A DNA stretch of 64,000 nucleotides from Siphonodentalium dalli (Eukaryota; Mollusca; Scaphopoda; Gadilida; Siphonodentaliidae), in contig CP136066.1 of the NCBI GenBank assembly GCA_032622095.1, forward strand, positions 41,429,835-41,493,834, given 5' to 3'. The number at the start of each line of letters is the position of its first letter. Within the stretch, counting starts at the first letter, position 1. Shown here one piece after another: positions 8,026 to 50,960 of this stretch. Under the pieces are notes generated by a model. That model was not told where the DNA came from, did not search any database, and saw only the letters and a program-made list of their open reading frames with translations. A program made the position numbers and the translations under genes.

Positions 8026-8039
8026 CGGGCTCCCTAACT

Positions 8040-8830
8040 ATTATACTTATGGCACTAGCATTGGGATGTTGGATTCATTACTGTATATTATAGTTACAGC
8101 GATAGCATTGGGATGTCACTGCATTATTAAATATTATGCTTACAGTGGTTGAATAGTATACTTACAGTGGTAGCATTGGGATGTCGGATTCATTGTTGAA
8201 TATTATACTTATCGTGCTATCATTGGAATGTCGGCTGCATTATTGAATATTATACTTAAAGTGCTAGCACTCGAATGTCGGCTTCATTACTGGATATTAT
8301 ACTTACGGTGCTAGCCCTATGATGTCGGGTCATTTTTGAATATTATATTTACGGTGCTAGCATTGGGATGTTAGCTGCATTATTGAGTATTATACTTACG
8401 GTGCTAGTGTTGGGATGTCGGCTGCATTATTGAGTATTATACTTACGACGCTAGCATTGGGATTTCAGCTGCATTATTGAGTATTATACTTACGGTGCTA
8501 GCATTGGGATGTCAGCTGCATTATTGAGTATTATACTTACGGTGCTAGTGTTGGGATGTCGTCTGCATTATTGAGTTTTATACTTACGGTGCTAGCATTG
8601 GGTTGTCGGCTGCATTATTGAATATTATACTTACGGTGCTAGTGTTGGGATGTCGGTGCATTATTGAATATTATACTTACGTGCTAGTGTTGGGACGTCG
8701 GCTTCATTATTGAATATTATACTTAGGGTGCTAGTGTTGGGATGTCGGTGCATTATTGAATATTATACTTACGGTGCTAGTATTGGGATATCGGCTGCAT
8801 TATTGAATATTATACTATGTTATACTAGCC
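8040..8830 (-). repeat. Minisatellite of about 17 units copying the exon-12 5' splice junction
   Basis: The unit is about 46 bp. On the minus strand each copy carries AATGCTAGCACC|GTAAGTATA followed by ATATTCAATAATGCAGCCGA. The functional junction at 9020 reads AATGCTACCACC|GTAAGTATA followed by CTATTCAATAATGAAGCCGA. So every unit contains the last exon bases, the donor and the first intron bases. Some units keep a perfect GTAAGT; others are damaged (near 8717 and 8812). The array sits 190 bp inside the intron downstream of the exon. Confidence 0.9.
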
Positions 8831-9019
8831 GCACTTTGTACTCAGTATATGATACTCAAACGTACAATTGAACAGTACTCACACACGACGAACGGTGTTT
8901 AAGTTACCTTGTATTGTCACTTATGTATACGTTAATATAGTATACACTAGGAATCTTATAGCCAGATTCTCTCTCTCAAGCACTGGGATATCGGCTTCAT
9001 TATTGAATAGTATACTTAC

Positions 9020-9160
9020 GGTGGTAGCATTCGATTGAGCAGATTATCAGTCTTTCTCTTCTCATCTGTAAGTTCCATTGTCCTCTGTGCCACGATATCT
9101 TCAAGGTTACAGGCGTACTTCTCTAACTTCTGCACCATTATATCCATTATACCTCCCTTT
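9020..9160 (-). CDS. Receptor GC exon 12: dimerisation coiled coil
   Basis: This 141-nt exon starts after CTTCTGTCAG and ends at ATGCTACCACC|GTAAGT. It encodes [38 protein letters not shown] and NLLNRMLPP. This is the signalling-helix dimerisation segment that directly precedes the cyclase catalytic domain in every membrane guanylate cyclase. It ends in phase 2 within the second Pro codon. The next exon, expected to begin the S-V-A stretch and the catalytic core, was not found between 1 and 9000. The exon is flanked on both sides by minisatellites built from its own splice junctions (8.04-8.83 and 9.2-9.42 kb). Confidence 0.95.
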
Positions 9161-12100
9161 CTGACAGAAGGAGCGTAAAGATAATATGGAATTAGTTCAT
9201 TATATCCATTATAACTCTCCGCCTGACAGAAGCAGAGTACATATAACACCCAATAAGTTCATTATATCATGATTCCCCCCTGTCTGACAGAAGCAGATTA
9301 AAGATATCAACGACTAAGGTAGTTATATCCATGATTCCTCCTTGTATGACAATCAGATTAAAGATAAGATCGAATAAGTTCATTGTATCCCTGATACCTC
9401 CCTGTCTGACAGAAGTTGAATGCAGATAACAACAAATAAGTTAGTTTTCGCCTTACTATACTATCAGCGAAACCTGGCACCCCTTCAAAATCTCATCTAC
9501 ATAATTTATAAGGCGTCATATAAAATGTAATGGCGGTTTCGCTGTGGTCATGGGATCTTGACCACGAGAACAAATAAGCAAAACTCCACCGTGCATTGCT
9601 TCTATTTACATACTTCGTGAGAATGACGGATAAAAGTGGCAGGCAATGTTGTATGGTTGTAACAGTGTTTGCGTTTTGACGGGGCCTACAGACCCATGCA
9701 CCGTACGTGGAAAATGCGGGGCCTTTTTTATCAGCCCATAAATCCCATGGCCCCAGTATGGAGGCAAGCCGACTAACGATATATTAAAGTTGAATCAGCA
9801 ACATTTAAACAAAAATAAGTTCCACTCAACAAACTTCTTTGTATTCTTTAATAATTTTATAATTTCACCTATAGAGAGCCCCAGACAAACATGAGCAGAC
9901 GACACTCTTCAATATGCGTCTATATATGTGTGGGGCTCCATGCAGGGTAATGGATGTTTTTTATTTTATGTCCTAAAAATTGTCAGAAACATTTATTTAA
10001 AAAAAAATGATAAACAATTGTTAGGCCAATGCATTCTCTTATATATGCGAGGCGACCTATGGTCGACTGGCATATATAAGAGAATGCATTGGCACGGGGT
10101 AAACAAAATCCCGACCAACGACTGGATTTGATGCGGCGGGTCATGTCATTATTGAATCATTCATGCATATGTTAAGTTGTTCAATGTTCAACAAGTTGTT
10201 GAAATGGGTTTCAGTTAAATTTTAATATCAGTTTAAACTTTATGAGATTGTGTTTATTATTTTTTAATATTCTATGAAAAAAGTTATTGTTAATGCATAA
10301 TACAAAAACACAATACAGAGACATTACAAAAAAGATCCCATTGGTTACTGACTACTTTCAGAGTAACAGTAAGTTTGCTTTCAGTTTTTATTACATATCT
10401 ACAACATTTATATAGCTTTTCAGGTCCCATGCTATTTACAATCCGCGAATACGGGGGCCTGTTTCATGAAGCAAGGTCATAAGATTATCTTAAGATGGAC
10501 TTAATCTAAGATCTAAGGTGGATCTTATGGTGTAACTTTTCCGTTTCAAGAACGCGTTTCACAAACAAGATTAAGACCTACTTAAGTAGTAAGTTAAGTT
10601 CCCGCTCATTTAGACTGGTTATCGACAATATTCTACAGTCCGGAACGAAAAAATGTGGGCTTGTGCAATCTTTATGTACGACATTGCGAGGTTATCGAGA
10701 AAGAGCCGAGTTGACATTATTGTGTGACAGGGATGCTGGATAGCGGCTGGGGTGGGGTGGGCGAATCAGCGCATGTATCTTAGTGTCTATAGTCAATGCA
10801 TGGCCTTATATTCGCATATGGATCTTAGACTTGTATGAGTTCCACGATGTGAATTCGAACATGAGTACATCGCAGGCTCTTAAAATGACGAACTTTGCGT
10901 TTACTGACGAGTGGCGGTGCCAGAAATAAGACAATATAATTATATGGATCGATGCATGACTGCGACCATGCATTCACGCCGAGTTAATCAACTGAGAGCA
11001 ATGATCAGGCGGCGATTTTTTTTGCGAGCCGACATAACTCGTATAGTATCGACCACCGCTCTCTACGTGTAGCAATAATCAAAATAAATCGGCGATGTCA
11101 TCAGGACACACATAGGTCATTTTTCGATTCAAAGGGAAATGAAAAATATTTGTTAGAGTAACTTTTTTTTATTATTTTTATGCAAATGTTTTATGCGGTT
11201 GTCATACCATGGATATATATATATATATATATAAATCTACGTTTTCGTTAGCACACTCGTATTAAGGGGTGTCATCGTTACGGGTGTGTATATTATATAT
11301 ACAGTATGCTGTACAACGGTCATCCCACCCCTGCAAAAATTTGGACAGCCTTGAAAATCACGACATATGGGCGTGGGCATAAACTCAATAAAAATAATAT
11401 TCTCTATAGAAAATTGTCACTATTTCTAAAACATATTTTGATAAAGAGCGTTTGTGTTACCTTTCCTATATGACATAACTGCTTTGTAAACAGCCGAGGA
11501 AATTTGGAAAGAGGAAAGAATCAATACATTAATTGATCTCAGTTTACCCCATCTCCCACACACACATGGAATAACATAGAGTAGATTGTGAGCTTTGAGC
11601 TAGGCCATAATTCTTATCAAAAGTTTAATTCGCGGGTAATACAATTTTATAATATATATTATCTATAGGTCACATACACAGCTGATAATTGACTATATCC
11701 TACATTCGACGAGGCTCGGGGTGGCTAGTTGGTCTCCGTGTGGGGGGGGGGGTACATCGTGCAATTTCCAACTGCACCCGCCCCTTAATTGAACCGGGCC
11801 AAACTTCCATGTTCGCGAAATGCCATGTCCACCCCACCCATTGGACTTAAACTTTCCAATTGGTGTCTCAAATATCCCAACAGTTCGAAATTTCTAACCT
11901 GACGCCCCTAAAATTGGTGATTTTCCAACTGGTTGCCATTTCGGTTGCTGCTGTTTGTCTAAAACAACACATTCCTTTACTAGTTAGAAATTCAAACAAT
12001 TGAAACCTATATATAGTGTACGATTAATGTTCTTGTCAGGCATGAAATTTCCAATTGCTAAACATTTTGACCAAAGTGTGTGTGTGTGGTTTGGGGGGGG

Positions 12101-15100
12101 GGGGGGGGTAGACAACACACAAACCCCATTTGCCACGTCCCTGATGATAAGTATGTACTCTGAATTGTTTTTACCAAATTAACCCTATGGTTATACGGTG
12201 GGGGGTTGCCCTCGCCAAACTCTGGTTTTGGAATGTTTGAGGTACCAGTTGGAATGTTTAAACCCAAAGAGAATTTGGTGTTGTTTAAGGGGGTGTAGTT
12301 GGACATTTCGAGACGAACACCCCCTCTCACTCTGTAGCCACGACCCTGTATACCAGACGACGAATTGCCCACCCAGACAATGTACAGATATCTCCGTAAT
12401 TGCAAAATAACATAGGCCGCCATACTTGTGATCGATATGCCACTTATCACGTGGGTCTTAACTTTTAAGATTATCTTATGACACCTCACAGCAGTCTTAA
12501 AGTTAAGACCAAAGTTAAGACCATCTTAAGTTAAGACCTTGTTCGTGAAACGCACTTATGACTGAAGTTTGAACTTATGAACATCTTAAGTCCCAACTAT
12601 GTCATAAGTTGCTTTCATGAAACAGGGCCCTGGATTATAGCCATGTTGACCATATGGTGGCTATCGTAGTGCATGGGAAATGTGGAAGCAATATGTGCAT
12701 ATAAATACACTTCTCTATACTTGGAATATCCAAAACCCCGGCGGCTCTTTTGTGAAAAATTGATGAGCTAATGACAACCAATAACAATCTAAAATTTGGA
12801 ATATTTAACTTAAACATTTTCAATTTCTCAGAAATGAAAACATGTCAACGTCTTGATGTGTTATAGTTGCTGAAACAATTCAAAAGCATTCAAGCTAAAT
12901 CGATACCTGTAATTTGCTCAAACGTAAAACGTCACAGATTCAAATTAGCCTACATGCCTTCATGGTGGGTTCATGCAAAATAACAAACAAGTACATGAAA
13001 AAATATATTATTTTTGTTAGTAGTTTCTTTATTAATGATTGCTGCAATAGTTAGATTTCGTATGTCAATTAGAATGGTGTGTAAACCTTACTGTTACAGT
13101 AGAATTATCGATACCAGTCCAATTAGTCCAGTAAGATACCAGAATTTATAAAAATTAATGGTAGACATTGTCAAATGTCAGAGAATTGAAAAATATTCTG
13201 AAAATCATTACTTATTACACATCTAGTGATGTTTGTTGACAAATAACTGCAATAGTTTTGTTTACATAATAATGGTTTCAACATGCAAAATTTTGCTATT
13301 GGATAACTATCAGTAATGAATATGTATTTCTCCAGGTTAGTTTTGGTGGTGAATGTTTTTACAGACTTGTATATTTTTTGCACATTAACCAACTTCTAAT
13401 GCATTGGGTGCCTTTGATATTCCATCTATTGATAAACTGAAATCATTAATTCAAAATTCTAAGATGTTCTGACTGTGCCCATTAATACTAGCTATCGGAC
13501 GACTCTTATACATACTGTGATTATACTCAACCACTTATATATTTTACTTACGGAATAACTTTGGTTTCCTAAATGAATTACAATGAAAGCATCATATTGA
13601 ATCGCAAACTTATAAATAGTGAAGCGATTTATGAACAATTTGTTATTTTGTATGATGCTTTTGAATTGTGTAAATAGAGTAATGCCTAAATAATCGACTG
13701 CTTACCCACAACAGAATTATGGGTAACTTTTCAGGATTTAGTTGGAAATATGGCTTGTTGCCATTCATCGGAAAGCTCTCAATGAGAGCTTTCCGATGAA
13801 TGCCAACAATCCATATTTCCAACTAAATCCTGAAAAGTTACCCATAATTCTGCTGTGGGTAAGGAGTCGATTATTTAGGCATTACACTAATTATATTAGA
13901 AAACCGTGTTTATTGCTTAGTATTATATATCAGTGAAAATGATCAACCTGAAAATGAATTTTTAGTCAGCAATCTGGTTAAATTTATGGAGCTTTTTAGT
14001 GACGTTGCCATGACGAGATTCCTATATTCAACGCTCCCTCCGCCCTATAATATAATTATTCTATTTATATACATTATCATTGTTGAAAGCAATGGCAAAG
14101 AACTACAGAGAAGGAGATATATGCAATTATCGTTATTGTCAAACAGATATTCACTTACTGATCTGTGTTATGTTTCTTGATGTACTTTCTGATATCTTCG
14201 AATGCTGGTCGTTCACTTGGATTTTCAGCCCAACAATCATAAAGTAAGCTCAACATACGTGGAGGTACATCATGGACGGTGGCTACAGTTGGGCGGAAAG
14301 GTGGGTCGATTTTTTCAGATCGCACTTTGTTGATTATTTCTACAATTGATAGAAAGTTTCCAATCTCAGCCCTAGTGGTCATAATTTTCAACAATGACGG
14401 TGTGTCCTGCTGAATTGCTATGCTCCTGGTAGTTCGAAATGATGCTGTTATAGTAAAATACCGATATGTTATCTAAAATTGTCATTTGCGTGGGGTTTGA
14501 CTGCTTGAGCGAATCAAGCAAAAGACACGAACTGTATACAAAATTCAAACAGATTCAAGTTACAAAATAATGAGACAATGGCTGTATTGGTTATTGAAAG
14601 CCGACCATACTCAAGATGAATATTCCTGTCGATTTGCAAGCACCAAATCACCAGGGCTGCTATTCTTGAATTTTTTTTCAAATATATCAGTTCTTAAATG
14701 TTTCATAGACAATGACTTTTCCTTGATGCTTTAAGATAAGCTAAACACTGAAAATTAAAAATTTAGAACAATGACAGTGATAAGATATTTCTTAACAGCA
14801 TGACCAACTAGCACGTAACCAGACAGTAGTGTTTAATTGAATATGTGTATGCCAGACCTACTTCATTTGTGGTGGATATCATGTCATATTAGAGTGTGAT
14901 AGCTTTCTCCAAATGTGGACCATATCGATAGCCAAGTATTACGGGAACCTGACACGGAGACAACCGATGGGCCCGAGTTGGTCTGACTGGGACTGCCCGA
15001 CCCAGGGACAACCCAGTCTGCAAACCCAAATATGTTCCTCTCCAAATGTTTTCTCTAAATGCAAGCTCAAATGCTCTCTTCTAGAAATGTGCTACTCCAA

Positions 15101-42100: not shown

Positions 42101-45100
42101 TGTCAAGATGCAACTTCTGTTTTGCGATATTCCTGAATTGGAAAGCGGACATCCTCATTCCAGACTATGTTTTAAATAGGGAAACTGCAACGCAAGCATA
42201 GTTCAGTACTCTCGTTGCGCTGGTCTGACCACTGAAATCATGTAAATATACGTAAGTTAATCAGGCCAGCATACCAGTGGAGTAAACACTGCTATGCAGT
42301 TTGATATTATAGCCACACACCTGTCCTGCATCGGCCGCCGGATCTGCAATAGCGAACTCTGTCCCAATGCCCTCTGGGTTGATAAAATCCTGAATGAGCC
42401 AAGCTGTCTCCCTATCACCCTTCTCATCGAAATTCACCATTCCTGATTTACCTGGAAGAAAGTTCCGGTTGTCAATCAGTCTAATGTCGGCCAATGAGCA
42501 TACGTCACCAAATTAAATGTAATATCTAGGTTACACTGCTGTAAATGTGTTCCATACACCTCAGTGCTAACGTTTTAGCATATACTGTTGGCAATATAAA
42601 TTTTGTGTCCAAACGTTTCATTAAATCTGAAAGATTGACATTAATTTTTGGGGAAACTTTTTACCCCAAAAAATGATATCCGTCTAGCAGCGAATTTGCC
42701 TTTAAATCTTGTGTTTTCGTAACTAGTGTCAGAACTGCATAAAAAATTACTGTCATATGTTACACCACACCAAAAAAATCACTACAACTTCAATACAAAG
42801 GGTTAATTCCTGTTCCAATGGCTATTTTACCTATGCAAGTTTTATCCCGCCAGTTTACGACGGAATGGTTTCCAGACACACTGGGTAGAATATTTGGGTG
42901 CAGTTATTTAATAAATGAATATAATTTGTGTGTATTTCATTGAAGCAGACTCCCTGTCACCTTTTGTGCCAATACAGGACAAAACATTAGCAAATCGATA
43001 AGCACACAAGAGAGGCAGTTAAGACTAGTTTAAATCCATCGCGAATTTCATGGCGATGCACACATTCCGCCTTGGTGCAAAAATAGCCAGTGATCGATAT
43101 CAATACTATACCTACATTACATAAAAGCTGCCCAAACTAGTATATACAACCCTGAAACCTATAACTTATGCTGTGGTAAATTAAGATAGTTAGGAACAGT
43201 TTCAAATTCAATAAATTCTGTATTGGTGGATTATATGTTATTTGGAAAATTGTGGGCCCGGCTTACAAATTTTCAGCCCTATTAACAAGATTGGTAAGAG
43301 GCGATTGGTGGCTCTCTTGCTTATAAATAATACAATCAAGTCATTTTCTTGTATCCAAGCGGCGGATACTGTTGGAAGCTGATATTGTAAAGTCCAGCAC
43401 GTCTCTACTATGGTCCTTTCCCTATGTCATGCTGGACAAGAATGACGTTTCAAAGCGCATTTCTGTGGATTAATGAATGTTTAAATGCTATTACGACACC
43501 AATTTAATATCCTCTACCTGTCATTGATGCTATATTGTCACTTCTTAGAAGAACAAAATTGTTCTCATCTCTCGATTTACAGTCTGACTACTGGCAGTGC
43601 CAAGTGGCGGCAGAAGGCAAATGTAAGACTTATTTCTTGTACCAACACGGTCTTTTCGAATTTAACATTGTCACACCTAGGCTCCTAAACACGATTGGAA
43701 TTTTCCAACAACACACGTCTCAAGTCTCAAATGAAATAGGCAATTAGGCAATAGCTTACTTAGATGACAGTGTAATCTGCAGTAAAACCCTGGTATCTCA
43801 TCTACAACACATTCAGGCAGTATTCAATAGATTTCGGCAGCATACTCTCAAGCTAGCGAAAATATTTCAATTTATGAAGCCAGCCACCCATTATTTAGGT
43901 TTTGTAATCGAAACCACCGGTACTTGTCCTGATCATGACATGGTCACGATAGTATCATTGTCTGCAACCTTACGTCTTATATTTCGACACTTGCTATGTG
44001 AATGACTTGGTATTGTCAGGAAAGCAGTTTATTAGTAAATAGTTAATTATACTCGCATCTCTATTGTGATTTTTCATACACAGATAAACCAATCACCAAA
44101 CAATACAATGGTAGACGGGTTGCTTCATCAGAAGGGCACAAGATTAGCTATGCAAACAGCACCGCCACATTAAATACTAGTAATCACACCAACCATCGGT
44201 ACTAATGCTATGAGACTAACGGCATCTTAATTTGTGTTAACTTAACCTACACCTTATAAAACACCACAAATATAATTATGTTGTAAGAGTTTCCTGAATT
44301 TAATGGTATTTACATCCAATATTGTTCAATTTTCTTGAGAGAATTAAAAAGTTAGTTACCACAACATTTGCCAAATGAAAATATTTTTTGCCAAATGTGA
44401 ATGATTTTTGCCATTGGCAAATTTAGAAAGTGGCAGCGCGAACCCTGGTTGAGGCCATTCGGTCTTCAGTATCTCCAAACTGTGTTAAGGGTGTTCGCTC
44501 TTTCATTGATAATTGCACCTAATATTGTTGTTTCATCCATCCTGGGGAATGCTGAACCCAATTGACATACACCCTATTCTTGAGAAAAGTGGGCTTGATC
44601 TATCAGGCCCCTACCCAATCTCCCGGGTTGTCGTCTCCCCCACCAATACAATCTCCAAACCAAGCCGTACCCATGCAGGTAAAGAATACCACCAAATCGC
44701 ATTGGAACAACATACATGTTGCTCCATAAGCATATGAAAACCGCAAATCGCCAATAAGCAGCTAAATTCGATAAGAAAGCAAAAGGCGTGTATTTTGCCA
44801 TCGGGGATTCCATGTATCTAAAGAACCAAATGACAGTCATGCATACTACAGAATAATTTCCCAATCACACATGAAAAGACATCTGACCGGGACTGTCACC
44901 AAGGCCCATACCACACACCTCCGAATGGGCAATTAGCATACCCTAAGTCGCTAGACATGCCCCAAACTACGTGGTACCTCCCACACTGGAGGATGAGCAC
45001 AAAGGCTCACCCAACGATAATTCCACCGGAGGGTCATTTAGGGATGAAACAGAACCATTGCCAGATAAGACCATCAAACATTTCCACAAAGAAAATCCCT

Positions 45101-48100: not shown

Positions 48101-50796
48101 TATTATGAATGAAATGCTACGAATGCTCAATCACTTCAATACCAAATTGCTATTTTTGACCATTGACATTCACAGTCGTATCTTTCATATTGGACAAACT
48201 GGCAACGAAATGTGCCAAATAATCACTCTCGGTGCAGCATCAAGCCTTGAAATAGGGTGTCTGTCATTTGCAGAATGAGGTTCCCAGAGGGTGAATTTAG
48301 TGATGCTACCCAGCATAGCGGGCTAGCATCTCCAAATTCACCCCTGGGAACCTCATTCTGCTGAGGTGTAAGCAGAATGGGGTCCCCAGAGGGTAAATTT
48401 TGTGATGCTAGCCCGCTATGCGGGGTAGCATCACTAAATTCACACTCTGGGGACCTCATTCTGCAAATGACAGACACCATATTTCAAGGCTTGTGCAGCA
48501 TACATTGAGCAGTTGCGACTTCGACGTGATATGATCGCCCTCGGTAAACTCTCCCCAGTTTAATAACTCCCAGGAATTTGCAAACGTTACTCCTCAATAT
48601 TCAAAAGCCATTTTCCGCCTGATGTGCAACTCCCAAAATGACCCCATGTCATAAATGTGGTCAATAATTATCCCGACCACACTCATTCAGTGGTTGAGCA
48701 CAGACTAGGTTTTCATATCCTGATACATAATTATCATTTGAATGGGGGTAACAAAAATTATGCCACTTGATTTTATACCAGCAAAATGCAACTGTGGTGG
48801 AAAAATGATTTTCGGACCCGTGTTTTATAGGTAACCAATAAGTGGTAAGTGGGTGTCTGACCAGCTAACACATCATGTAGGGTTTGCGAAAATCACACCT
48901 AGCATCCCGGGATGACAGTAAAAATTCATACTGAAATTCTGGCTGATGGCTCGAAAGCTTTTTGACATGTCAAATTAGGAAAAGATGAAAGAAAAATGGC
49001 CTGAAATTAATTAGTCATATAACATTTTATCACAAAGTGAAGTTGGTACTATATGTATGGATGACAAGAGAAGGAATAGGGAATGTGCAAAGCATATGCA
49101 AATAGGGGGGAAATAATGTAAAAGTGACATAATGTTGTGCAGATACATGATTCCTCGTTCACTTGTCATAAATTTAAGGTTGAGAGTAGTGACCCGGAGT
49201 GGTTTTACAAAATTTGGAAAACAATTTCGAACGTATATATGCACCAAAATATCTCAATTAATAAAACCCAAAAGTTAAAATTTTAAATTTATAAATAAAA
49301 TCACCAAAGAAGGGAAATAGACAAAGCCAATAAAATCTTCATCAGTTGCCAGTTGCTAACATGTGCCGTACTAAACGTATGAATGCCAACTTTTCGACCT
49401 TTACGTTCACGATTTCGGGCCCGTGATACACAATGTTTTTATTTCTCGAGAATAACTACCTATGCTGTCTGGAAGAATTTCAAAGTATCATCACTGGGAT
49501 ATATACAAAATACCTTTATTCAAGCAAATCGCTACTACTTGATATTGGTGGGGTCAATGTCACTTAAAATGATATTTAGACATGCTCTAAATATGCACAA
49601 GGTCACAACCAACCTTCTCTCGATACACTGGACCGAAATTTACTTTTGCCATATAATTTGCCAAATGAAAATATTTTTGCCAAATTATTTTAGCAATTGC
49701 CAAATGCTATCGCCGAAAGTATAATTTTCTGCATCCTTGAGTATTATGTTTCGAAACTCGCTGTTTGAATAACTTTTGATATCGTTAGAAAAGCAGTTAG
49801 TTAATAATTAATCATACTCGCATCTCCATTGTGAATTATCACACAACAATAAGCCGATCACCGAACAATACATTGGTAGAAGAGTTTCTCCATCAGAAGG
49901 GCACATCACAGGAGGATTAGTAATCCCTCAACCATCAGTACTAATGCTATGAGATTAACTGCATCTTAACCCTTTACCCAACAAACCGGCCAAAACCGAC
50001 CAAATAAAGCTTCAACAGCCTAAAATATCTTCGGTCTGTCTCAATAGAACCATACACATATGGATATCATTGGAACCGGCTCCTTGGCCACATTGTGATA
50101 GTTACAGTTATGCCCTGTGCCAATGCATTCTCTTATATATGCGAGTCGACCATAGGTCGCCTCGCATATATAAGAGAATGCATTGGCCTAAAAAAAATCT
50201 TTTTTTAACACTTTTTACCATTTTTTCTTACATTCTTTAACAATTTTATAATTTTTAATGTGTTAAGCCAATGCATTCTCTTATATATGCGAGGCGACCT
50301 ATGGTCGACTCGCATATATAAGAGAATGCATTGGCACAGGGCCCTTCTGTTGGGTAAAGGGTTAATAGAGAAGTAAACTTTCCCTAAACCTTATAAAACA
50401 CCACTAATATAAATATGTTGTAAGAGTTTCCTAAAAGTAATGGTATTGATTGACCATTTTTTTTCACAAATTGCTTGAGGAATTAAAAAGTGACTTTTGC
50501 CAAATGTGAATTATTTTTGCCATTGGAAAATTTGGAAAGTGGCAGCGCGAACCCTGGATACACATGCCACATGAAACGTGCCACATAGCACTCGTATACT
50601 CTATTCTAAGAATTTACCCCTATACTGAGAATACGTCACCTTGACATGCTATATACTCACCCATATATGAGCAATTACTTGCAAATTTCCGCATCCCCTC
50701 TCCATCCCTGTGATCCAAACCATAGGTAAGAGAGTGATTCAGCCAGTATGCGTACAGAATTATCGCATCGTGCAAATACGGTACGTATTTACCGCC
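9020..50796 (-). CDS. Receptor guanylate cyclase gene, partial, 12 exons assembled
   Basis: Joining twelve minus-strand exons (50796-50661, 42451-42321, 41683-41575, 40118-40037, 35002-34918, 28407-28243, 24914-24810, 23494-23423, 18806-18647, 17052-16900, 14339-14159, 9160-9020) gives about 506 in-frame codons with AG/GT boundaries and matching phases throughout. Domain order is that of membrane guanylate cyclases (GTP to cGMP): C-terminal ANF-receptor ligand-binding lobe, Cys-containing stalk, one transmembrane helix, basic juxtamembrane segment, kinase-homology domain, and dimerisation coiled coil ending in LLNRMLPP. The protein would sit in the plasma membrane with the kinase-homology and cyclase domains cytosolic. 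The signal peptide and N-terminal ligand lobe are not seen (expected at higher coordinates), nor is the cyclase catalytic domain (expected below 9020). Introns range from about 0.6 to over 8 kb and carry most of the mobile elements here. No internal stop occurs in the joined exons, so it looks functional. The identification is firm; the ligand is unknown. Confidence 0.93.
9173..9425 (-). repeat. Four extra copies of the exon-12 3' splice junction
   Basis: Upstream of exon 12 (higher coordinates), a unit of about 60 bp repeats the acceptor and the first exon bases. The true site reads CTTCTGTCAG|AAAGGGAGGTATAATGG. Copies near 9222, 9283, 9342 and 9408 keep TGTCAG or TGCCTGACAG-like cores followed by AGGGAGG-like and ATAATG-like bases. 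They also share the ATGAAC tail. The array abuts the functional acceptor. Confidence 0.85.
9525..9600. repeat. Half copy of the 58.1-kb palindromic MITE
   Basis: GGCGGTTTCGCTGTGGTCAT, GGGATCTTGACCACGAG and AGCAAAACTCC match one arm of 58108-58245. Confidence 0.6.
9845..10148. mobile_element. Truncated hairpin MITE (TGTGACCCGCC family)
   Basis: Carries the internal GAGCCCCAGACAAACATGAG to TGTGTGGGGCTCC segment, then the 70-bp palindrome (10022-10096), then the right end ATTTGATGCGGCGGGTCA. The left end is missing compared with the intact copies at 27.48, 29.66 and 56.87 kb. Confidence 0.8.
10455..12630. mobile_element. TIR element of ~2.2 kb with GGGCCTGTTTCATGAA ends
   Basis: Left end GGGCCTGTTTCATGAAGC and right end GCTTTCATGAAACAGGGCCC are inverted. 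Subterminal regions on both sides are rich in CTTAAG and TTAAGACC motifs (10480-10600 and 12460-12600). The interior has no transposase ORF, only AT repeats (11217-11232) and poly-G tracts (11740, 12092). A clear target-site duplication was not seen. It is most likely a non-autonomous DNA transposon. Confidence 0.6.
13679..13886. mobile_element. Palindromic MITE, 208 bp, TA-flanked
   Basis: Arms begin GTAATGCCTAAATAATCGAC and end inverted. The whole element is nearly one palindrome with the centre CTCTCAATGAGAG. The outer arms resemble the 2845-2973 element. It lies in the intron between exons 11 and 12, and its ORF at 13742 is spurious. Confidence 0.75.
14159..14339 (-). CDS. Receptor GC exon 11: end of kinase-homology domain
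   Basis: This 181-nt exon starts after TATCAATTGTAG and ends at ACAGATCA|GTAAGT. It encodes [18 protein letters not shown], then [16 protein letters not shown] and [16 protein letters not shown]. The D-C-W-x-E-x-P-x-x-R-P-x-F pattern is the conserved end of the kinase fold. Phase 1 in and phase 2 out. Confidence 0.95.
14345..16640. other. Intron between exons 10 and 11, mostly unremarkable
   Basis: Contains short degenerate CTCCAAATG repeats (15035-15110) and their inverse (15300-15410), GAT-rich microsatellite patches (16040-16070, 16370-16385), and a fragment of a dispersed repeat at 16420-16520. No exon recognised. Confidence 0.5.
16420..16520. repeat. Fragment of the 44.4/50.5-kb dispersed repeat
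   Basis: AAAGCACCACTAGTATAATT, GCCAAATGTGAATTAATTTT and GACAAGTGGCAGC match 44270-44450 and 50390-50555. Confidence 0.65.
16680..16835. repeat. Degenerate pair of the 70-bp hairpin
   Basis: TTATATATGCGAGTC near 16684, TTCTCTTATATATGTGAGGC near 16774 and TAAGAGAATACATTGTCACA near 16818 are decayed arms. The following ACAGGGTTTTCGCAA to GGTCATGGGTT matches the flank of the solo hairpin at 24.5 kb, so both come from a further element family. Confidence 0.6.
16900..17052 (-). CDS. Receptor GC exon 10: pseudokinase C-lobe
   Basis: This 153-nt exon starts after GATACTTTTGCAG and ends at CGTCCAGTG|GTGAAT. It encodes [13 protein letters not shown], then [22 protein letters not shown]-x-P-E-L-L-R and the K-G-D-V-Y-S-F helix are conserved in the family. 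The usual Ala of the APE-like motif is Cys here. Split codons at both ends (phase 1) agree with exons 9 and 11. A degenerate pair of the 70-bp hairpin lies just downstream (16.68-16.83 kb). Confidence 0.94.
17310..17460 (+). repeat. Possible tRNA-derived SINE fragment
   Basis: ATATGTTCGATTCCCGG near 17347 is a strong RNA polymerase III B-box. The upstream AGAGCTAGACTAAGTGGGC could be part of a decayed tRNA head. No intact cloverleaf. Confidence 0.3.
17640..17945. repeat. 30-bp minisatellite
   Basis: About nine degenerate units of CTGGCTCCCTGGACTGACAC then GAACACCACA. Minus-strand ORFs here are by-products. Located in the intron between exons 9 and 10. Confidence 0.8.
18599..18630. repeat. 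Solo end of the TGTGACCCGCC element
   Basis: TGTGACCCGCCATCAAATCC then AGTC matches the termini of the elements at 27.48, 29.66 and 56.87 kb. It lies only 17 bp from the exon-9 donor. Confidence 0.6.
18647..18806 (-). CDS. Receptor GC exon 9: pseudo-catalytic loop and DYG
   Basis: This 160-nt exon starts after TTTAATTACAG and ends at ATGGATAAAG|GTATGG. It encodes [20 protein letters not shown], then [19 protein letters not shown]. The catalytic HRD of true kinases is absent: the loop reads H-G-R-L-A-S-N-N-C, as in other receptor guanylate cyclases, and DFG is DYG. It is therefore a regulatory pseudokinase segment that binds ATP rather than phosphorylating. Phase 0 in and phase 1 out. Confidence 0.95.
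18807..19676. other. Intron sequence with a partial TIR-element copy
   Basis: Around 19080-19200, ATCTGATGACTCTGAGCTTT and CCTCGACTCGAATCAAATAT are inverted relatives of the element at 25549-25894 and 62869-63215. No exon seen in the rest. Confidence 0.5.
19677..22396 (+). pseudogene. Decayed non-LTR retrotransposon (CR1/jockey-like ORF2)
   Basis: The plus strand encodes, in order, the C-terminal half of an apurinic-type endonuclease ([10 protein letters not shown] near 19773, [10 protein letters not shown] near 19875), a linker, and reverse transcriptase. The RT shows [14 protein letters not shown] near 20890, [11 protein letters not shown] near 21130, [11 protein letters not shown] near 21290 and FADDTSLY at 21377. 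A long C-terminal region ends in [16 protein letters not shown]. It is broken by a TGA at 19906, a stop and frameshift near 20350, frameshifts near 20750 and 20890, and a TGA at 21356 just before the FADD motif. The N-terminal endonuclease is missing, so it is 5'-truncated, as is usual for these elements. It lies antisense in the intron between exons 8 and 9. The exact clade is inference. Confidence 0.9.
22400..23204. other. LINE 3' flank and intron, no gene
   Basis: A short inverted repeat, GGACTGCCCAACAGTGACCC at 22716 against GGTTACTGTTGGACAGTC at 22743, with a target-like TATTATAG centre. No exon was recognised. The LINE 3' end was not delimited. Confidence 0.4.
23205..23415 (-). repeat. 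Three degenerate copies of the exon-8 3' end and donor
   Basis: Units of about 70 bp downstream of exon 8. On the minus strand the exon end reads TTCTTGTCCGATGTCGTACAG|GTGAGTAGA, split here between its two conserved halves. Copies read TTCGTGGAAGATCTCGTACC, then TTCTTGGCAGATATCGTACA, then TTCTTGGCCATTGTGATAC. Each is followed by intron sequence ending in the shared TAGTCCAG or TAGTCCAAAC motif. Divergence increases with distance from the exon. Confidence 0.8.
23423..23494 (-). CDS. Receptor GC exon 8: kinase-homology domain
   Basis: This 72-nt exon starts after CACTATTGCAG and ends at GTCGTACAG|GTGAGT. It encodes [17 protein letters not shown] and LSDVVQ. The family signature D-x-L-E-N-x-x-I-x-L-D-W-x-F-K-x-S is complete. 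Phase 0 on both sides. Its 3' half plus donor is reiterated about three more times at a spacing near 70 bp in the intron immediately downstream (23.21-23.41 kb). Confidence 0.93.
23535..23625 (+). repeat. Possible tRNA-like SINE head
   Basis: TTAGCTGGTCCAGTGGTTAG (A-box-like) and, 55 bp on, ATGCGTTCAAATATTGC (B-box-like). The spacing and motifs resemble a decayed tRNA-derived SINE. It is not a functional tRNA, as the arms do not pair throughout. Confidence 0.35.
24511..24585. repeat. Solo 70-bp palindromic hairpin
   Basis: GGCCAATGCATTCTCTTATA then TATGCGAGGCGACC, the CTATGG centre and the inverted arm ending GCATTGGCACAGGG. The right flank (TTTTCTCAAACGTTCAGGAA) matches that at 16.83 kb. 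Confidence 0.85.
24810..24914 (-). CDS. Receptor GC exon 7: kinase-homology domain, alpha-C to hinge
   Basis: This 105-nt exon starts after GTATGATTTCAG and ends at GGTCTTCAG|GTTTGT, giving 35 codons. It encodes [16 protein letters not shown], then a segment ending [14 protein letters not shown]-x-x-F-I-G-A and the Y-C-x-x-G-x-L-Q hinge are diagnostic of receptor guanylate cyclases. Phase 0 on both sides, reading straight on from exon 6 as LKA-MKEM and into exon 8 as GGLQ-DVLEN. Confidence 0.93.
25025..25250. repeat. GAT-type microsatellite
   Basis: Imperfect (GAT)n/(GACGAT)n tract. The 91-aa minus ORF it contains is low complexity. Confidence 0.9.
25549..25894. mobile_element. TIR element, 346 bp, TTAAAGGTACTCAATCCGA ends
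   Basis: TTAAAGGTACTCAATCCGA at the left is inverted at the right as TCGGATTGAGTACCTTTAA. Inside are CGAGTCGAGGAACCCACCCA and GATCAGATATCAAT. A related copy lies at 62869-63215 and a fragment at 19.1 kb. No ORF, so non-autonomous. Confidence 0.8.
25993..26290. repeat. Fragment of a hairpin-bearing piggyBac-like MITE
   Basis: TTAACCCTTTCAAAACCGG start, then a half hairpin (26036-26072), an AT-rich spacer and another half hairpin (26254-26290). The right TIR is missing. The flanks CACCATTTTTCAAGGTTG (25950) and CACCATTTTTCGAGGTTG (26333) are near-duplicates. Confidence 0.6.
26298..26879 (-). other. Unrecognised 193-codon ORF inside an intron
   Basis: Open for 582 bp on the same strand as the receptor, between exons 6 and 7. 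The predicted product has a hydrophobic stretch ([18 protein letters not shown], then a Pro-containing break and [16 protein letters not shown]), several Cys, and N-x-S/T sites, as in a membrane protein. I do not recognise a family. No promoter, splice or repeat evidence supports expression. It could be a chance ORF, a relic of a multipass receptor or a part of an unknown element. Confidence 0.3.
27479..27921. mobile_element. Hairpin MITE, TGTGACCCGCC family, intact
   Basis: Ends TGTGACCCGCCATATCAAAT and the inverted GATTTGATATGGCGGGTCAC. Each end carries an AAGTCGGGATTTTTTTACCC block and a 70-bp palindromic hairpin (27529-27600 and 27815-27868, the latter partly deleted). The centre holds GAGCCCCACACATATATAGA to TTGTTTGGGGCTC. 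Flanks are GTATA and TATAC. No transposase. Confidence 0.88.
28243..28407 (-). CDS. Receptor GC exon 6: start of kinase-homology domain
   Basis: This 165-nt exon starts after TTTCGTTCCAG and ends at CTCAAGGCG|GTAACG. It encodes a Ser-rich lead-in ([10 protein letters not shown]), then [12 protein letters not shown], and VLMDLKA at the end. GLYKG-x-x-V-x-V-KK is the beta-2/beta-3 region of the kinase-homology domain, and the Lys pair corresponds to the VAIK lysine. Ser and Thr residues in the lead-in are in the region phosphorylated in vertebrate natriuretic peptide receptors (family knowledge). Phase 0 on both sides. It lies in a stretch bounded by hairpin-bearing MITEs (27.48-27.92 and 29.66-30.11 kb). 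Confidence 0.9.
28978..29557. mobile_element. TIR element, 580 bp, AAAGGGGTACTGTACGCCA ends
   Basis: TTTAAAGGGGTACTGTACGC at the left is inverted at the right as GCGTACAGTACCCCTTTAAA. No coding potential. Its end structure (AAAGG-TACT) resembles the 25549-25894 family. Confidence 0.75.
29659..30108. mobile_element. Hairpin MITE, TGTGACCCGCC family, intact
   Basis: Same structure as 27479-27921 with two hairpins (29708-29778 and 29987-30060) and the internal GAGCCCC segment in the opposite orientation. The ORFs at 29723 and 29961 merely translate the hairpins. Confidence 0.88.
30363..31300 (+). repeat. 45-bp minisatellite containing GTAAGT
   Basis: About 17 units of consensus GTTAACCATTATAGGTAAGT then GGGTGTCTGACCAGGTGTTT and TATAA. 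Some are expanded with CTGACAAATCTGACAGAG. Unit length is a multiple of three, which explains the ORF at 31087-31320. A lone related unit with the same right flank (AAAATCACAC) lies at 48824-48895. The resemblance to the splice-site arrays is clear, but I found no exon of the receptor next to it. Confidence 0.85.
32060..32260. repeat. GAT/GAC microsatellite
   Basis: (GAT)n followed by (GACGAT/GGCGAT)n. It gives His- or Ser-rich spurious ORFs on the minus strand. Confidence 0.9.
33221..33356. mobile_element. Palindromic foldback MITE, 136 bp
   Basis: ACTGTCATGTGGACTGTTTT to its inverted copy AAAACAGTCCACATGACAGT, near-perfect through GAGGTAAGTGGT. Flanked by TTA and TAA. Confidence 0.8.
33473..33888. 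mobile_element. piggyBac-like MITE with one hairpin
   Basis: Flanked by TTAA on both sides (33469-33472 and 33889-33892). Ends CCATTTCAGTGCCAG and inverted CTGGCACTGAAAGGG. Contains a truncated 70-bp hairpin at 33807-33848. TTAA target plus CC(C/A)TTT ends fit piggyBac; no transposase is present. Confidence 0.75.
33925..34917 (-). repeat. 39-42-bp minisatellite copying the exon-5 end and donor
   Basis: About 24 units. On the minus strand each reads roughly ACACCTACAGACATACAACC, then TATATCTAAAAACCAG|GTA. Most are exactly 39 bp (13 codons, reading roughly [13 protein letters not shown]). The four nearest the exon carry CAG|GTAAGA; more distant ones carry CAG|GTAACA. Units at the far end (33.93-34.2 kb) are 42 bp with ATTATA. 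Long ORFs in both directions here are by-products of the 3n unit length. Confidence 0.9.
34918..35002 (-). CDS. Receptor GC exon 5: juxtamembrane linker
   Basis: This 85-nt exon starts after TATTCCGAAG and encodes [16 protein letters not shown], then [12 protein letters not shown], ending at CCCAG|GTAAGA. The basic stretch, the Glu-Arg-Glu-Leu helix and the W-K-I-x-x-x-D-I pattern match the segment between the membrane helix and the kinase-homology domain of receptor guanylate cyclases (W-R-V-x-W-E-D in vertebrate paralogues). It is phase 2 in and phase 0 out. The last 39 nt and the donor are the seed of the minisatellite at 33.93-34.92 kb. Donors with the same CAG|GTAAGA context occur at exon ends 34918, 34879, 34840 and 34801, all in frame, so the true 3' end may be any of these or may vary. 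Confidence 0.88.
35697..35813. mobile_element. Palindromic MITE, 117 bp
   Basis: TTATTAATTGGTTGTTTCCA to its inverted copy. Arms include CCGAGTTATGAGGC. An AACTCGGCC-type motif recurs at 42.04 kb. Confidence 0.75.
35895..36284. mobile_element. piggyBac-like MITE with two hairpins
   Basis: TTAA-flanked (35891-35894 and 36285-36288). Ends CCCTTTATCCAACA and inverted TGTTGGGTAAAGGG. Two 70-bp hairpins at 36040-36114 and 36187-36262. Highly similar to 49970-50361. Confidence 0.88.
36290..38330. other. Gene-free intron stretch
   Basis: Short direct repeats of GATTCGTAGTAACC and TAGTTACCTGACAC (37720-37860). Otherwise no structure I can support and no exon. Confidence 0.4.
38503..38804 (+). pseudogene. 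PIF/Harbinger transposase (HARBI1-like), first exon only
   Basis: An ATG at 38503 opens 100 codons: basic [20 protein letters not shown], then [29 protein letters not shown] and [15 protein letters not shown]. This matches the N-terminal part of Harbinger nucleases, where RRFWVHP and I-S-P-x-x-R-L-A are conserved. The last codons are followed by GAG|GTGAGA, a good donor, as Harbinger genes often have an intron here. The second exon with the DDE catalytic residues is not found downstream before 40 kb, where host exon 4 begins. Upstream GC-rich sequence (38350-38450, starting TTAAAGCCGCTTACACATGG) could be a terminal region. It is a fragment, on the opposite strand to the receptor. Confidence 0.8.
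39697..39775. repeat. Solo 70-bp palindromic hairpin
   Basis: TTAGGCCAATGCATTATCTT to GAGAATGCATTGGCACAGGG, full palindrome, preceded by a TTTTTCTTACATTCTTTGACA-type AT-rich track, split here as TTTTTCTTACATTC and TTTGACA, typical of the paired elements. Confidence 0.85.
40037..40118 (-). CDS. Receptor GC exon 4: transmembrane helix
   Basis: This 82-nt exon was found by phase: exon 3 leaves one nucleotide and exon 5 needs two from upstream. It starts after TTTACAG and ends at TTACGAAG|GTTGGT. It encodes [19 protein letters not shown] followed by FIVLQLR, a single hydrophobic helix of about 20 residues ending in basic residues. Joined to exon 5 it reads [13 protein letters not shown], the expected stop-transfer border. 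The GTTGGT donor is non-consensus, so the exact end is slightly less sure. The position between stalk and juxtamembrane exons and the perfect phase fit make it very likely real. Confidence 0.8.
40925..41061 (+). repeat. Probable LINE 3' end with CTATC tail
   Basis: AGCAGGAAGACAGCCCGATA, then TGTATTGTAAATAAACTATC and a short (CTATC)n repeat. The pentanucleotide tail after AATAAA is typical of CR1-like LINE 3' ends. No coding part is adjacent. Confidence 0.45.
41395..41480. repeat. Damaged 70-bp hairpin
   Basis: GGCCAATGCATTCTCTTATA left arm, then a shortened centre and two partial right arms (GAGATTGCATTGGCACTC and AGAGAATGCATTGGCACTC). Immediately downstream of the exon-3 junction copy. Confidence 0.75.
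41500..41550 (-). repeat. Second copy of the exon-3 3' end and donor
   Basis: The 50 bp match 41568-41620 (CATAGCTCGTTATAGA is identical on the plus strand). The copy has a TGA where the exon codes Pro, and the donor has become GCGAGA. It is a single extra unit, so it may represent the first step of the array growth seen at other exons. Confidence 0.8.
41575..41683 (-). CDS. Receptor GC exon 3: extracellular stalk with CGF...C motif
   Basis: This 109-nt exon starts after CTTTCCACAG and ends at CACACAG|GTGAGA. It encodes [19 protein letters not shown], then [10 protein letters not shown]. The pattern I-W-x-x-x-G-x-P-P-x-D-x-P-x-C-G-F is the conserved pre-transmembrane stalk of membrane guanylate cyclases. 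The two cysteines probably form the usual juxtamembrane disulphide. It is phase 0 in and phase 1 out. The 3' end of the exon together with its donor is copied once more just downstream at 41500-41550, with a TGA in place of a coding triplet and a GC-type donor. Confidence 0.92.
42321..42451 (-). CDS. Receptor GC exon 2: membrane-proximal ligand domain
   Basis: This 131-nt exon starts after CTTTCTTCCAG and ends at GGACAG|GTGTGT. It encodes [14 protein letters not shown] followed by TAWLIQDF and a segment ending DPAADAGQ. In natriuretic-peptide receptors the equivalent stretch is G-x-V-x-x-D-x-x-GDR, the last strand pair of the ligand-binding lobe. Phase 1 in and phase 0 out match both neighbours. 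It is separated from exon 1 by an 8.2-kb intron holding Ty3/gypsy and LINE remnants. The weak GTGTGT donor is the only canonical GT in this position that keeps the phase. Confidence 0.9.
43490..43960 (+). pseudogene. Ty3/gypsy reverse transcriptase remnant
   Basis: Shows [17 protein letters not shown] near 43560, [11 protein letters not shown] near 43650, then in a shifted frame [13 protein letters not shown] near 43757 and [11 protein letters not shown] near 43892. These are the F-S-x-L-D-L-x-x-G-Y-W-Q, G-L-x-x-F, Y-x-D-D and Y-L-G-H blocks of Ty3/gypsy RT. Stops and indels separate the blocks. Nearby 44590-44630 ([10 protein letters not shown]) may be an integrase remnant. The element continues on the plus strand in decayed form to about 45.4 kb. 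Confidence 0.8.
43950..44455. repeat. Dispersed repeat, copy 1 (uninterrupted)
   Basis: Parallels 49640-50555: CTCGCATCTCTATTGTGA, CATCAGAAGGGCACA, ACTAATGCTATGAGACTAAC, CTTATAAAACACCAC and AAGTGGCAGCGCGAACCCTG. At the TTAA where copy 2 carries a MITE, this copy reads straight through. Confidence 0.75.
44510..45360 (+). pseudogene. Probable 3' part of a Ty3/gypsy pol, decayed
   Basis: [11 protein letters not shown] near 44592 resembles the start of the integrase core. The 128-codon ORF 44971-45357 is Ser/Pro/Glu-rich ([12 protein letters not shown]) and could be the C-terminal tail beyond integrase, but no chromodomain or other motif confirms it. Assignment rests on proximity to the RT remnant. 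Confidence 0.4.
45827..46098. repeat. Four tandem copies of a 68-bp unit
   Basis: Unit: TAAGTGTCCAATGACAGACC, CACCCAGTGCCGCCCCAATA, TGTCACAAAGTACAGACC, CTTCTCAATG. Copies are over 95% alike by eye, so the expansion is recent. Confidence 0.92.
46780..47610 (-). pseudogene. Second decayed non-LTR retrotransposon, C-terminal part
   Basis: On the minus strand, 47600-47440 encodes [19 protein letters not shown] and [13 protein letters not shown], the R-x-L-V-R-P-x-L-E-Y-x-x-x-V-W and R-R-A-T-K-L-I-P blocks downstream of LINE RT. 47030-46800 encodes [18 protein letters not shown] and ends near SPNLVVDAD. About 340 bp of unrelated, GTGTCAC-rich sequence (47050-47395) separates the two, suggesting an insertion. 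The W of the first block is G here. RT core absent. Confidence 0.8.
47050..47395. repeat. Insertion splitting the minus-strand LINE
   Basis: Sequence rich in GTGTCAC/GTGTCAG motifs lies between the two coding blocks of the LINE. It has no TIR that I can see, so its nature is unresolved. Confidence 0.45.
47615..48020. repeat. Dispersed element beginning TACTAGCTGATGTGTCCGAC
   Basis: Begins TACTAGCTGATGTGTCCGAC, then TTCATCCGGGCTATTTAG, and ends in a CA-rich ACACACACAGACAGATG tract. It contains a ~125-bp tandem duplication (GGTCCAGAAACATGCCTATA to TTTGAGTCGGATCGGT). A relative starts at 58848 (ACTAGAAGGTGACCCGACTT) and ends at 59590. The type resembles LINE-derived (RTE-like) 3' tails, by memory only. 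Confidence 0.6.
48241..48493. mobile_element. Foldback element, 253 bp, with 8-bp target duplication
   Basis: Ends CAAGCCTTGAAATAGGGTGT and its inverted copy. Nearly the whole element is a palindrome made of repeated CAGAATGAGGTTCCCAGAGG and GATGCTA-type blocks. It is flanked by TGCAGCAT at 48233-48240 and 48494-48501. An 8-bp duplication and CA...TG ends suggest mobilisation by a hAT-type transposase. Confidence 0.85.
48824..48895 (+). repeat. Solo unit related to the 30.4-31.3-kb minisatellite
   Basis: GTGTTTTATAGGTAACCAAT, then GGTAAGTGGGTGTCTGACCA, then GCGAAAATCACACC matches the terminal unit of the large array (31255-31310), including the flank beyond the array. It suggests the array grew inside a dispersed repeat rather than in unique sequence. 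Confidence 0.6.
49640..50555. repeat. Dispersed repeat, copy 2, interrupted by a MITE
   Basis: Matches 43950-44455 on both sides of the 49970-50361 element. Ends GGCAGCGCGAACCCTGG just before exon 1. Confidence 0.75.
49970..50361. mobile_element. piggyBac-like MITE with two hairpins, 392 bp
   Basis: TTAA on both sides (49966-49969 and 50362-50365). Ends CCCTTTACCCAACA and inverted TGTTGGGTAAAGGG. Two 70-bp hairpins (50118-50188 and 50271-50338). Compared with the related repeat at 44.2 kb it is inserted exactly at a TTAA, which supports both the boundaries and the superfamily. Confidence 0.9.
50661..50796 (-). CDS. Receptor GC exon 1 of window: ANF-receptor ligand-binding segment
   Basis: This 136-nt exon starts after TATTTCAG and ends at CATATATGG|GTGAGT. 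It encodes [13 protein letters not shown], then [14 protein letters not shown] and NCSYMG. The D-A-x-x-L-Y-A followed by an N-x-S-L and a DxRDG stretch is the conserved helix region of natriuretic-peptide-receptor extracellular domains (family knowledge). It ends in phase 1 (ATG G), and the next exon begins GT AAA, giving Gly at the junction. NHS and NCS are possible N-glycosylation sites. The preceding exon (phase 0) was not found. The acceptor side carries degenerate extra copies at 50.83-50.96 kb. Confidence 0.9.
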
Positions 50797-50825
50797 CTGA
50801 AATAGAACATACACGTGACAGAAGT

Positions 50826-50960
50826 CAGTCAATGGGCGTACAGTACCATCGCACCATGAATTCACGATTCGTATTTCTTTACCCGAAATAGACTGACACG
50901 TCGTGACTGCAGGTAGCCAATATTCGTAGATTATTATGCATCATGCACATACCATGGCCA
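50826..50960 (-). repeat. Two degenerate copies of the exon-1 acceptor region
   Basis: On the plus strand, 50736-50815 (GCGTACAGAATTATCGCATC, then CGTATTTACCGCCCTGAAAT) is echoed at about 50826-50905 (GCGTACAGTACCATCGCACC, then CGTATTTCTTTACCCGAAAT). A weaker copy lies at about 50913-50960 (TTCGTAGATTATTATGCATC). Spacing is about 87 bp. Each unit spans the start of exon 1 and its upstream acceptor. Confidence 0.65.

Follow-up and report, generated by a model that had tools for sequence, protein, structure and literature searches.

Minisatellites spanning splice junctions of a receptor guanylate cyclase gene and its inverted sister in the scaphopod Siphonodentalium dalli

Gene structure and exon model

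The assembled genome of Siphonodentalium dalli comprises 2.23 Gb in 9 contigs. The stretch analyzed here, 64,000 nucleotides in length and referred to as the window, contains the middle part of a natriuretic-peptide-receptor-like guanylate cyclase gene, whose placed exons extend from about window position +110,000 to -27,000, with ~137 kb between the outermost ones. Exons were searched for with pieces of human NPR-A (one seed sequence together with solved structures), which located the kinase-homology, linker and cyclase exons. Splice signals, combined with the reading phase, then fixed their borders at single-base precision, from the DNA alone. A total of 33 splice junctions could be placed, 21 within the window and 12 outside it. 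Exons are numbered as in the first-pass annotation of this DNA; its exon 4 and the acceptor of its exon 5 were not found by NPR-A comparison, splice signals and reading phase. The ligand-domain exons, taken singly, gave no convincing PDB or Pfam match, and exon 12 matched Pfam HNOBA only below the Pfam cut-off. The gene and its exons in the window are as follows, with junction copies as defined in the next section.

G000:C6:41429835-41493834, minus strand: window, with the middle of the natriuretic-peptide-receptor-like guanylate cyclase gene
50661..50796, minus strand: exon 1, end of the ligand-binding domain; placed by splice signals and phase
42321..42451, minus strand: exon 2; junction copies absent
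41575..41683, minus strand: exon 3; placed by NPR-A comparison, splice signals and phase
28243..28407, minus strand: exon 6; junction copies absent
24810..24914, minus strand: exon 7, kinase homology; junction copies absent
23423..23494, minus strand: exon 8, kinase homology; placed by NPR-A comparison, splice signals and phase
18647..18806, minus strand: exon 9; junction copies absent
16900..17052, minus strand: exon 10; junction copies absent
14159..14339, minus strand: exon 11; junction copies absent
9020..9160, minus strand: exon 12, linker preceding the cyclase domain (..DNLLNRMLP); bordered on either side by unrelated arrays

Tandem arrays across exon-intron borders

Junction-spanning copies, defined by an alignment score of at least 26 at a distance of at most 1.5 kb from the junction, were found at 6 of the 21 in-window junctions, namely the donors of exons 3, 5, 8 and 12 and the acceptors of exons 1 and 12. 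These are exactly the six junctions that the first-pass annotation had singled out, and its statement that exons 2, 6, 7, 9, 10 and 11 are free of copies was reproduced at the same score and distance, where zero junction copies were detected. Over the whole gene, 9 of 33 junctions have such a copy; the three outside the window (among 12) are the donor of the upstream exon eN2, the donor of exon 13 and the acceptor of exon 15.

8034..9031, minus strand: exon 12 donor array; exon copy at 9031-8986 and a further 16 at 8816-8064
9136..9442, minus strand: exon 12 acceptor array; 5 copies (exon copy counted) of a 62-bp unit with ~25 exonic bp each
23217..23452, minus strand: exon 8 donor (last exon base 23423) and one diverged copy 148 bp downstream, 78% identity
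33957..34951, minus strand: exon 5 donor array; 39-bp unit ending CAG/GTAAG, 25 copies; last exon base 34918
41499..41617, minus strand: exon 3 donor (exon ends at 41575) with a single tandem copy; unit of 67 bp, 2 copies, 85% identity
50739..50902, minus strand: exon 1 acceptor (exon starts at 50796), with a single diverged copy of 69% identity lying 85 bp upstream
Window +91763: donor of the upstream exon eN2; 2 extra copies
Outside the window: exon 13 donor; copy 1163 bp away

Four of the six in-window cases are strong (the donors of exons 3, 5 and 12 and the acceptor of exon 12), while those at exons 1 and 8 are weak, the exon 1 acceptor being the weakest of all. The copies at these two exons score above 300 of 300 single-base shuffles. 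Every main array unit links exon to intron sequence over a conserved splice site. More specifically, the exon 12 donor unit of 47 bp consists of ~13 exonic bp, GTAAGT and 28 intronic bp, and is present in 17 copies when the exon copy is counted. About 200 bp separate the exon copy from the first array copy, so that the head-to-tail order is not strict here. Farther along the same intron, at about window -3206 to -3880, the unit recurs in a second cluster of 14 copies. Amplification had initially been suggested to be precise at the junctions; the breakpoints are in fact imprecise, as the copies include anything between ~8 and 58 of the 60 exonic bp inspected.

The donor units of exons 5 and 12 match only two loci in the 2.23-Gb genome, this gene and a sister gene described below, in a search that skips very common words. 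Their absence elsewhere indicates that they were seeded on the spot. It also bears on a very improbable origin, in which dispersed repeats or transposon parts with splice-like words by chance were inserted beside the exons. Dispersed repeats bearing GTAAGT do exist in this genome, and a 45-bp array in the window resembles, by eye, repeats on contig C1. Against such an origin stand the restriction of these two donor units, the ones searched genome-wide, to the sister loci, and the exon-derived half of the units at exons 3 and 12, which encodes residues that align with human NPR-A and are conserved in the sister gene.

An inverted sister gene with the same junction arrays

An inverted sister gene lies tail to tail with the first one at C6:41.24-41.38 Mb, and ~30 kb separates the two 3' ends. 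GT or AG is retained in the sister at 21 of 21 in-window junctions. The exons of the two genes diverge by 4.2% (71 differences in 1704 nt, from the 12 of 16 exons that were placed at both ends), and the differences are distributed over codon positions 1, 2 and 3 as 16, 8 and 47. All 12 compared exons are open in both genes and contain no stops. This comparison covers the sister sequence up to 41,356,000 and leaves out exons 13-16. Given the retained splice signals, the open exons and the codon-position bias, both genes look functional, and by the same signals the exon borders are sound. Exons and splice sites thus look to be under selection in both genes. Across the two loci, 89 aligned blocks cover 33 kb with a mean identity of 83.5%.

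All six in-window junction cases occur in both genes, including the weak ones, as copies of the exon 1 acceptor and the exon 8 donor were found in the sister gene too. The sister gene therefore serves as a built-in time control, which shows which arrays predate the duplication and how they changed later. It also makes an assembly artefact extremely improbable: long arrays misassemble easily and copy numbers are possibly off, but two separate loci show the same junction arrays with different variants.

Array turnover and concerted evolution

Copy number changes fast, and the two genes differ in the size of several arrays. Copy numbers are given below for the gene in the window and for its sister.

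Exon 12 donor: 17 copies (and 14 in the second cluster) in the gene, ~300 in the sister
Exon 5 donor: 25 copies in the gene, 21 in the sister
Exon 3 donor: 2 copies in the gene, 12 in the sister
Exon 12 acceptor: 5 copies in the gene, 5 in the sister
eN2 donor: 2 extra copies in the gene, 0 in the sister
41352288-41368269: sister exon 12 donor array; matches cover 14,217 of 15,982 bp, ~302 units

The large sister array is interrupted by two gaps of ~0.6 kb and 43 small gaps of 2-58 bp. The sister's exon 12 donor lies at 41352081 and the cyclase match of the next exon begins at 41368558, so that the array occupies most of the 16-kb intron 12. Of the array, 3.7 kb (79 units) were read as letters, and the remainder is known from match positions; GTAAGT occurs 50 times in 3.9 kb of this intron (~79 units).

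To follow how the copies are related, nearest relatives were counted with ties scored half. At the exon 12 donor, the nearest relative lies in the same gene for 80.5 of 95 copies, where 500 shuffles of the gene labels gave 66.9 on average and 79 at most. The exon 5 donor gave 36 of 44, compared with an average of 21.8 and a maximum of 30 in 500 shuffles. At the exon 12 acceptor such within-gene likeness is absent, with 3.5 of 8 nearest relatives in the same gene. Concerted evolution is hence seen in two of three arrays, the exon 12 and exon 5 donors. Homogenization is partial, since mean identity is nearly equal within genes (0.86-0.89) and between genes (0.86-0.87). The exon copies themselves share 0.98 identity across the genes at exon 12 and only 0.90 at exon 5. 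This pattern of turnover is consistent with unequal exchange in an array whose border copy is preserved by selection.

Conservation of the repeated donors

Conservation was ranked by alignment column after copies with more than 4 gaps had been dropped, which left 72, 13 and 12 copies for exon 12, 23 and 20 for exon 5 and 7 for exon 3. The donor motif of exon 12 ranked 23, 16 and 35 of 47 windows in the three clusters, no better than other columns, and that of exon 3 in the sister ranked 31 of 56. The GTAAG columns of the exon 5 arrays ranked 8 and 4 of 39 and are among the best conserved. The exon 5 unit is in frame, its 39 bp corresponding to 13 residues per step, and a reading continued past the first donor runs through 3 complete units in the gene and 4 in the sister before stops appear.

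These features of exon 5 speak for arrays retained for a function, as a ladder of donors that would vary splicing and in which later donors of exon 5 would add 13 membrane-side residues per step. Internal tandem repeats at human exon borders are reported to alter splicing in the account of PMC2812944, which lends this idea a precedent. We regard such a function as quite unlikely, as the exon 5 frame is closed by stops after those few units, the donor columns of exon 12 show no special conservation, and the 47-, 62- and 67-bp units are not multiples of three. The unremarkable exon 12 columns would agree with donors that act as neutral decoys.

Controls for a preference for splice junctions

Tandem repeats with a period of at least 10 cover 15.5% of the 153-kb gene region, compared with 2.6% of the flanks of 40 sampled exons. 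The idea of splice-site-targeted amplification needs testing against this very high background. Such an idea holds that splice junctions are preferred starting points of tandem duplication, owing to a transcription- or splicing-linked process that involves, for instance, R-loops or repair. We consider it unlikely, and the controls that bear on it disagree with one another.

In the rotation control, 4 of 33 junctions lie in or at arrays called by Tandem Repeats Finder, while the mean after rotation is 6.0; the program fails to join the donors of exons 3, 8 and 12 to their copies. Random 40-mers from introns had a local copy at 603 of 3000 positions, compared with 6 of 33 junctions, and thus gave no excess either. 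This second control was judged unfair, because long arrays are counted many times, and was replaced by the single-copy edges of virtual exons. Any virtual exon whose centre was itself repeated had been removed ahead of the count, which kept 500 of 733 in the 1.5-kb test and 600 of 796 and 893 of 1000 in the others. Within 500 bp, copies were found at 8 of 33 junctions and at 61 of 1200 edges (5.1%; Fisher 0.0003), and the in-window junctions alone gave 6 of 21 (0.0006). With wider flanks of 1.5 kb, the counts were 9 of 33 junctions and 82 of 1000 edges (0.0014), and with a stricter score 4 of 33 and 48 of 1200 (0.047). Rotation and 40-mers hence reveal no excess, whereas single-copy edges reveal one within the cyclase gene. 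This excess speaks for targeting, but it is weakened by ascertainment, as the gene was picked for its arrays, and it may arise in part because copies decay more slowly when selection preserves their partner.

Beyond this gene, we turned to 40 other exons obtained from family searches (myosins, ion channels, other cyclases and ligand-binding domains) that ignored repeats. Their junctions were set by splice-site score; 10 of the 40 exons fall into four groups of close neighbours, and the sample leaves out loci L001-L008 and includes L057, which has a stop inside the hit. This is the comparison of junctions with random edges that the first-pass annotation had itself proposed. Junction copies occur at 2 of 80 junctions, the donor of L034 and the acceptor of L046, against 85 of 1786 random single-copy edges (4.8%) in the same DNA, which amounts to no excess. 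The sample is small, and the 95% upper bound on its rate, taken from a coarse grid, is ~8%. The earlier suggestion of a mechanism aimed at splice sites finds no support in these exons, and within the cyclase gene rotated junction positions match arrays equally often. The wide spread in the exonic extent of the copies counts against targeting as well. A genome-wide aiming of repeat growth at splice sites is therefore not supported, with the reservation that 80 junctions are a small sample.

A further control used the words themselves. Tandem triples, consisting of three exact words at a spacing of 29-51 bp, were counted genome-wide, the spacing being limited since a 26-bp satellite on contig C1 had swamped the first scan with the donor word. 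The donor word CAGGTAAGT yielded 1336 matches, compared with 185, 247, 234, 88, 63, 43 and 234 for seven control words of the same composition. These are counts of word matches rather than of arrays, and a few large arrays account for much of the donor matches listed: the first 100 of them fall, by eye, into 8 places in ~525 Mb, and two control words with complete lists fall into 17 and 10 places genome-wide. Within the 279 kb examined, the donor word gave 2 and the controls 1-3, too few to weigh. Furthermore, genuine splice sites may raise the frequency of donor words over the genome. The surplus is a hint in favour of targeting, a pointer short of proof.

Comparison with known junction-spanning repeats

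Published accounts of amphioxus describe mirages, tandem repeats that lie over the exon-intron boundaries of Adh3, BflGb6, BflGb9, troponin C and PGBD5, with haplotypes that differ in copy number and with apparently normal splicing (PMC3087553, PMC3902484). The first-pass annotation had likened the cyclase arrays to these repeats, and the comparison holds, as they lie across genuine splice junctions, with strong copies at four of these. It had also called the involvement of acceptors unusual; the lancelet repeats are described in print at 5' and 3' boundaries alike (PMC3087553, PMC3902484).

As far as these accounts go, the likeness extends to units that span the border and in many cases carry the splice signal, to the presence of arrays at both 5' and 3' borders and to an intact exon. 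In both systems there is concerted evolution within an array from which the border copy is left out, here at the exon 12 and exon 5 donors. Copy number varies between haplotypes in amphioxus and between the sister genes here (2 versus 12 and 17 versus ~300). The features examined in the DNA thus indicate that the cyclase arrays belong to an already known kind, the mirages. They differ from the amphioxus cases so described in affecting several junctions of one gene, in occupying both ends of one exon and in the ~300-copy sister array. The amphioxus examples given in those accounts show neither as many junctions per gene nor an array of 300 copies. Mirages are thereby extended beyond the amphioxus genes of those accounts, to several junctions of one gene. 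The animal is a different one as well, with a genome of 2.23 Gb. Amphioxus genomes are far smaller than that.

Two further systems are related. Internal tandem repeats in human segmental duplications, as reported in PMC2812944, also lie at exon borders and differ between paralogs; theirs were tied to alternative splicing by transcripts, whereas the cyclase arrays, in this respect and in relation to amphioxus, are known from DNA alone. Intron gain by tandem genomic duplication, as outlined in PMC4974935, likewise involves tandem duplication of splice sites. In the cyclase genes, unlike in that process, the copies lie inside an existing intron and no new intron was seen.

Origin of the arrays

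The arrays are probably minisatellites of the mirage type, in which short local tandem duplications arose by chance across an exon-intron border and were followed by unequal exchange or slippage. On the best reading, they were born and turned over as ordinary minisatellites do, in a locus rich in repeats, and were tolerated where they grew into the intron. The sites would not have been chosen for being splice sites; the locus would simply be rich in tandem repeats. Selection would remove growth toward the exon and tolerate growth toward the intron, so that the real junction would come to lie at the array's edge. The additional splice sites may then be neutral decoys that splicing ignores. The sister intron, with its ~300 similar units, many of them with a donor, offers a natural test of how the spliceosome chooses the true site.

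A broader proposition, that introns can grow by amplifying their own splice site, appears doubtful; its example is intron 12 of the sister gene, most of which consists of ~300 copies of a unit that spans the intron's own 5' splice site. If junctions did seed arrays preferentially, a possibility left by the excess in the cyclase gene and by the surplus of the donor word, this would be a distinct route of intron growth, accompanied by in-frame lengthening of the protein at exon 5.

Other repeats around the locus

Two further arrays in the window were considered as junction arrays and rejected, as neither lies at a placed exon. The first, at 30499-31281, is the 45-bp tandem array mentioned above; it carries GTAAGTGGG on the plus strand, antisense to the gene, and its resemblance to the C1 repeats makes it probably a dispersed repeat rather than a junction array. 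The second, at 45823-46096, consists of a 68-bp unit in four copies, and similar DNA is present in the sister locus, where the frame contains a stop. Outside the window, a partial, diverged copy of exon 13 (L011) lies at window -7017 to -7136, ~1.2 kb downstream of that exon.

The satellite on contig C1, at G000:C1:231979802-232052835, has a 26-bp unit, extends over at least 70 kb and contains CAGGTAAGT in many of its units. Long open frames at 19648-22396, on the plus strand of the intron that separates exon 8 from exon 9, resemble, by eye, a LINE-type reverse transcriptase. A short inverted repeat around GCCAATGCATTCTCTTATATATGCGAG is scattered through the introns, seen by eye at 27520-27880, 26260-26290, 24500-24600 and elsewhere.
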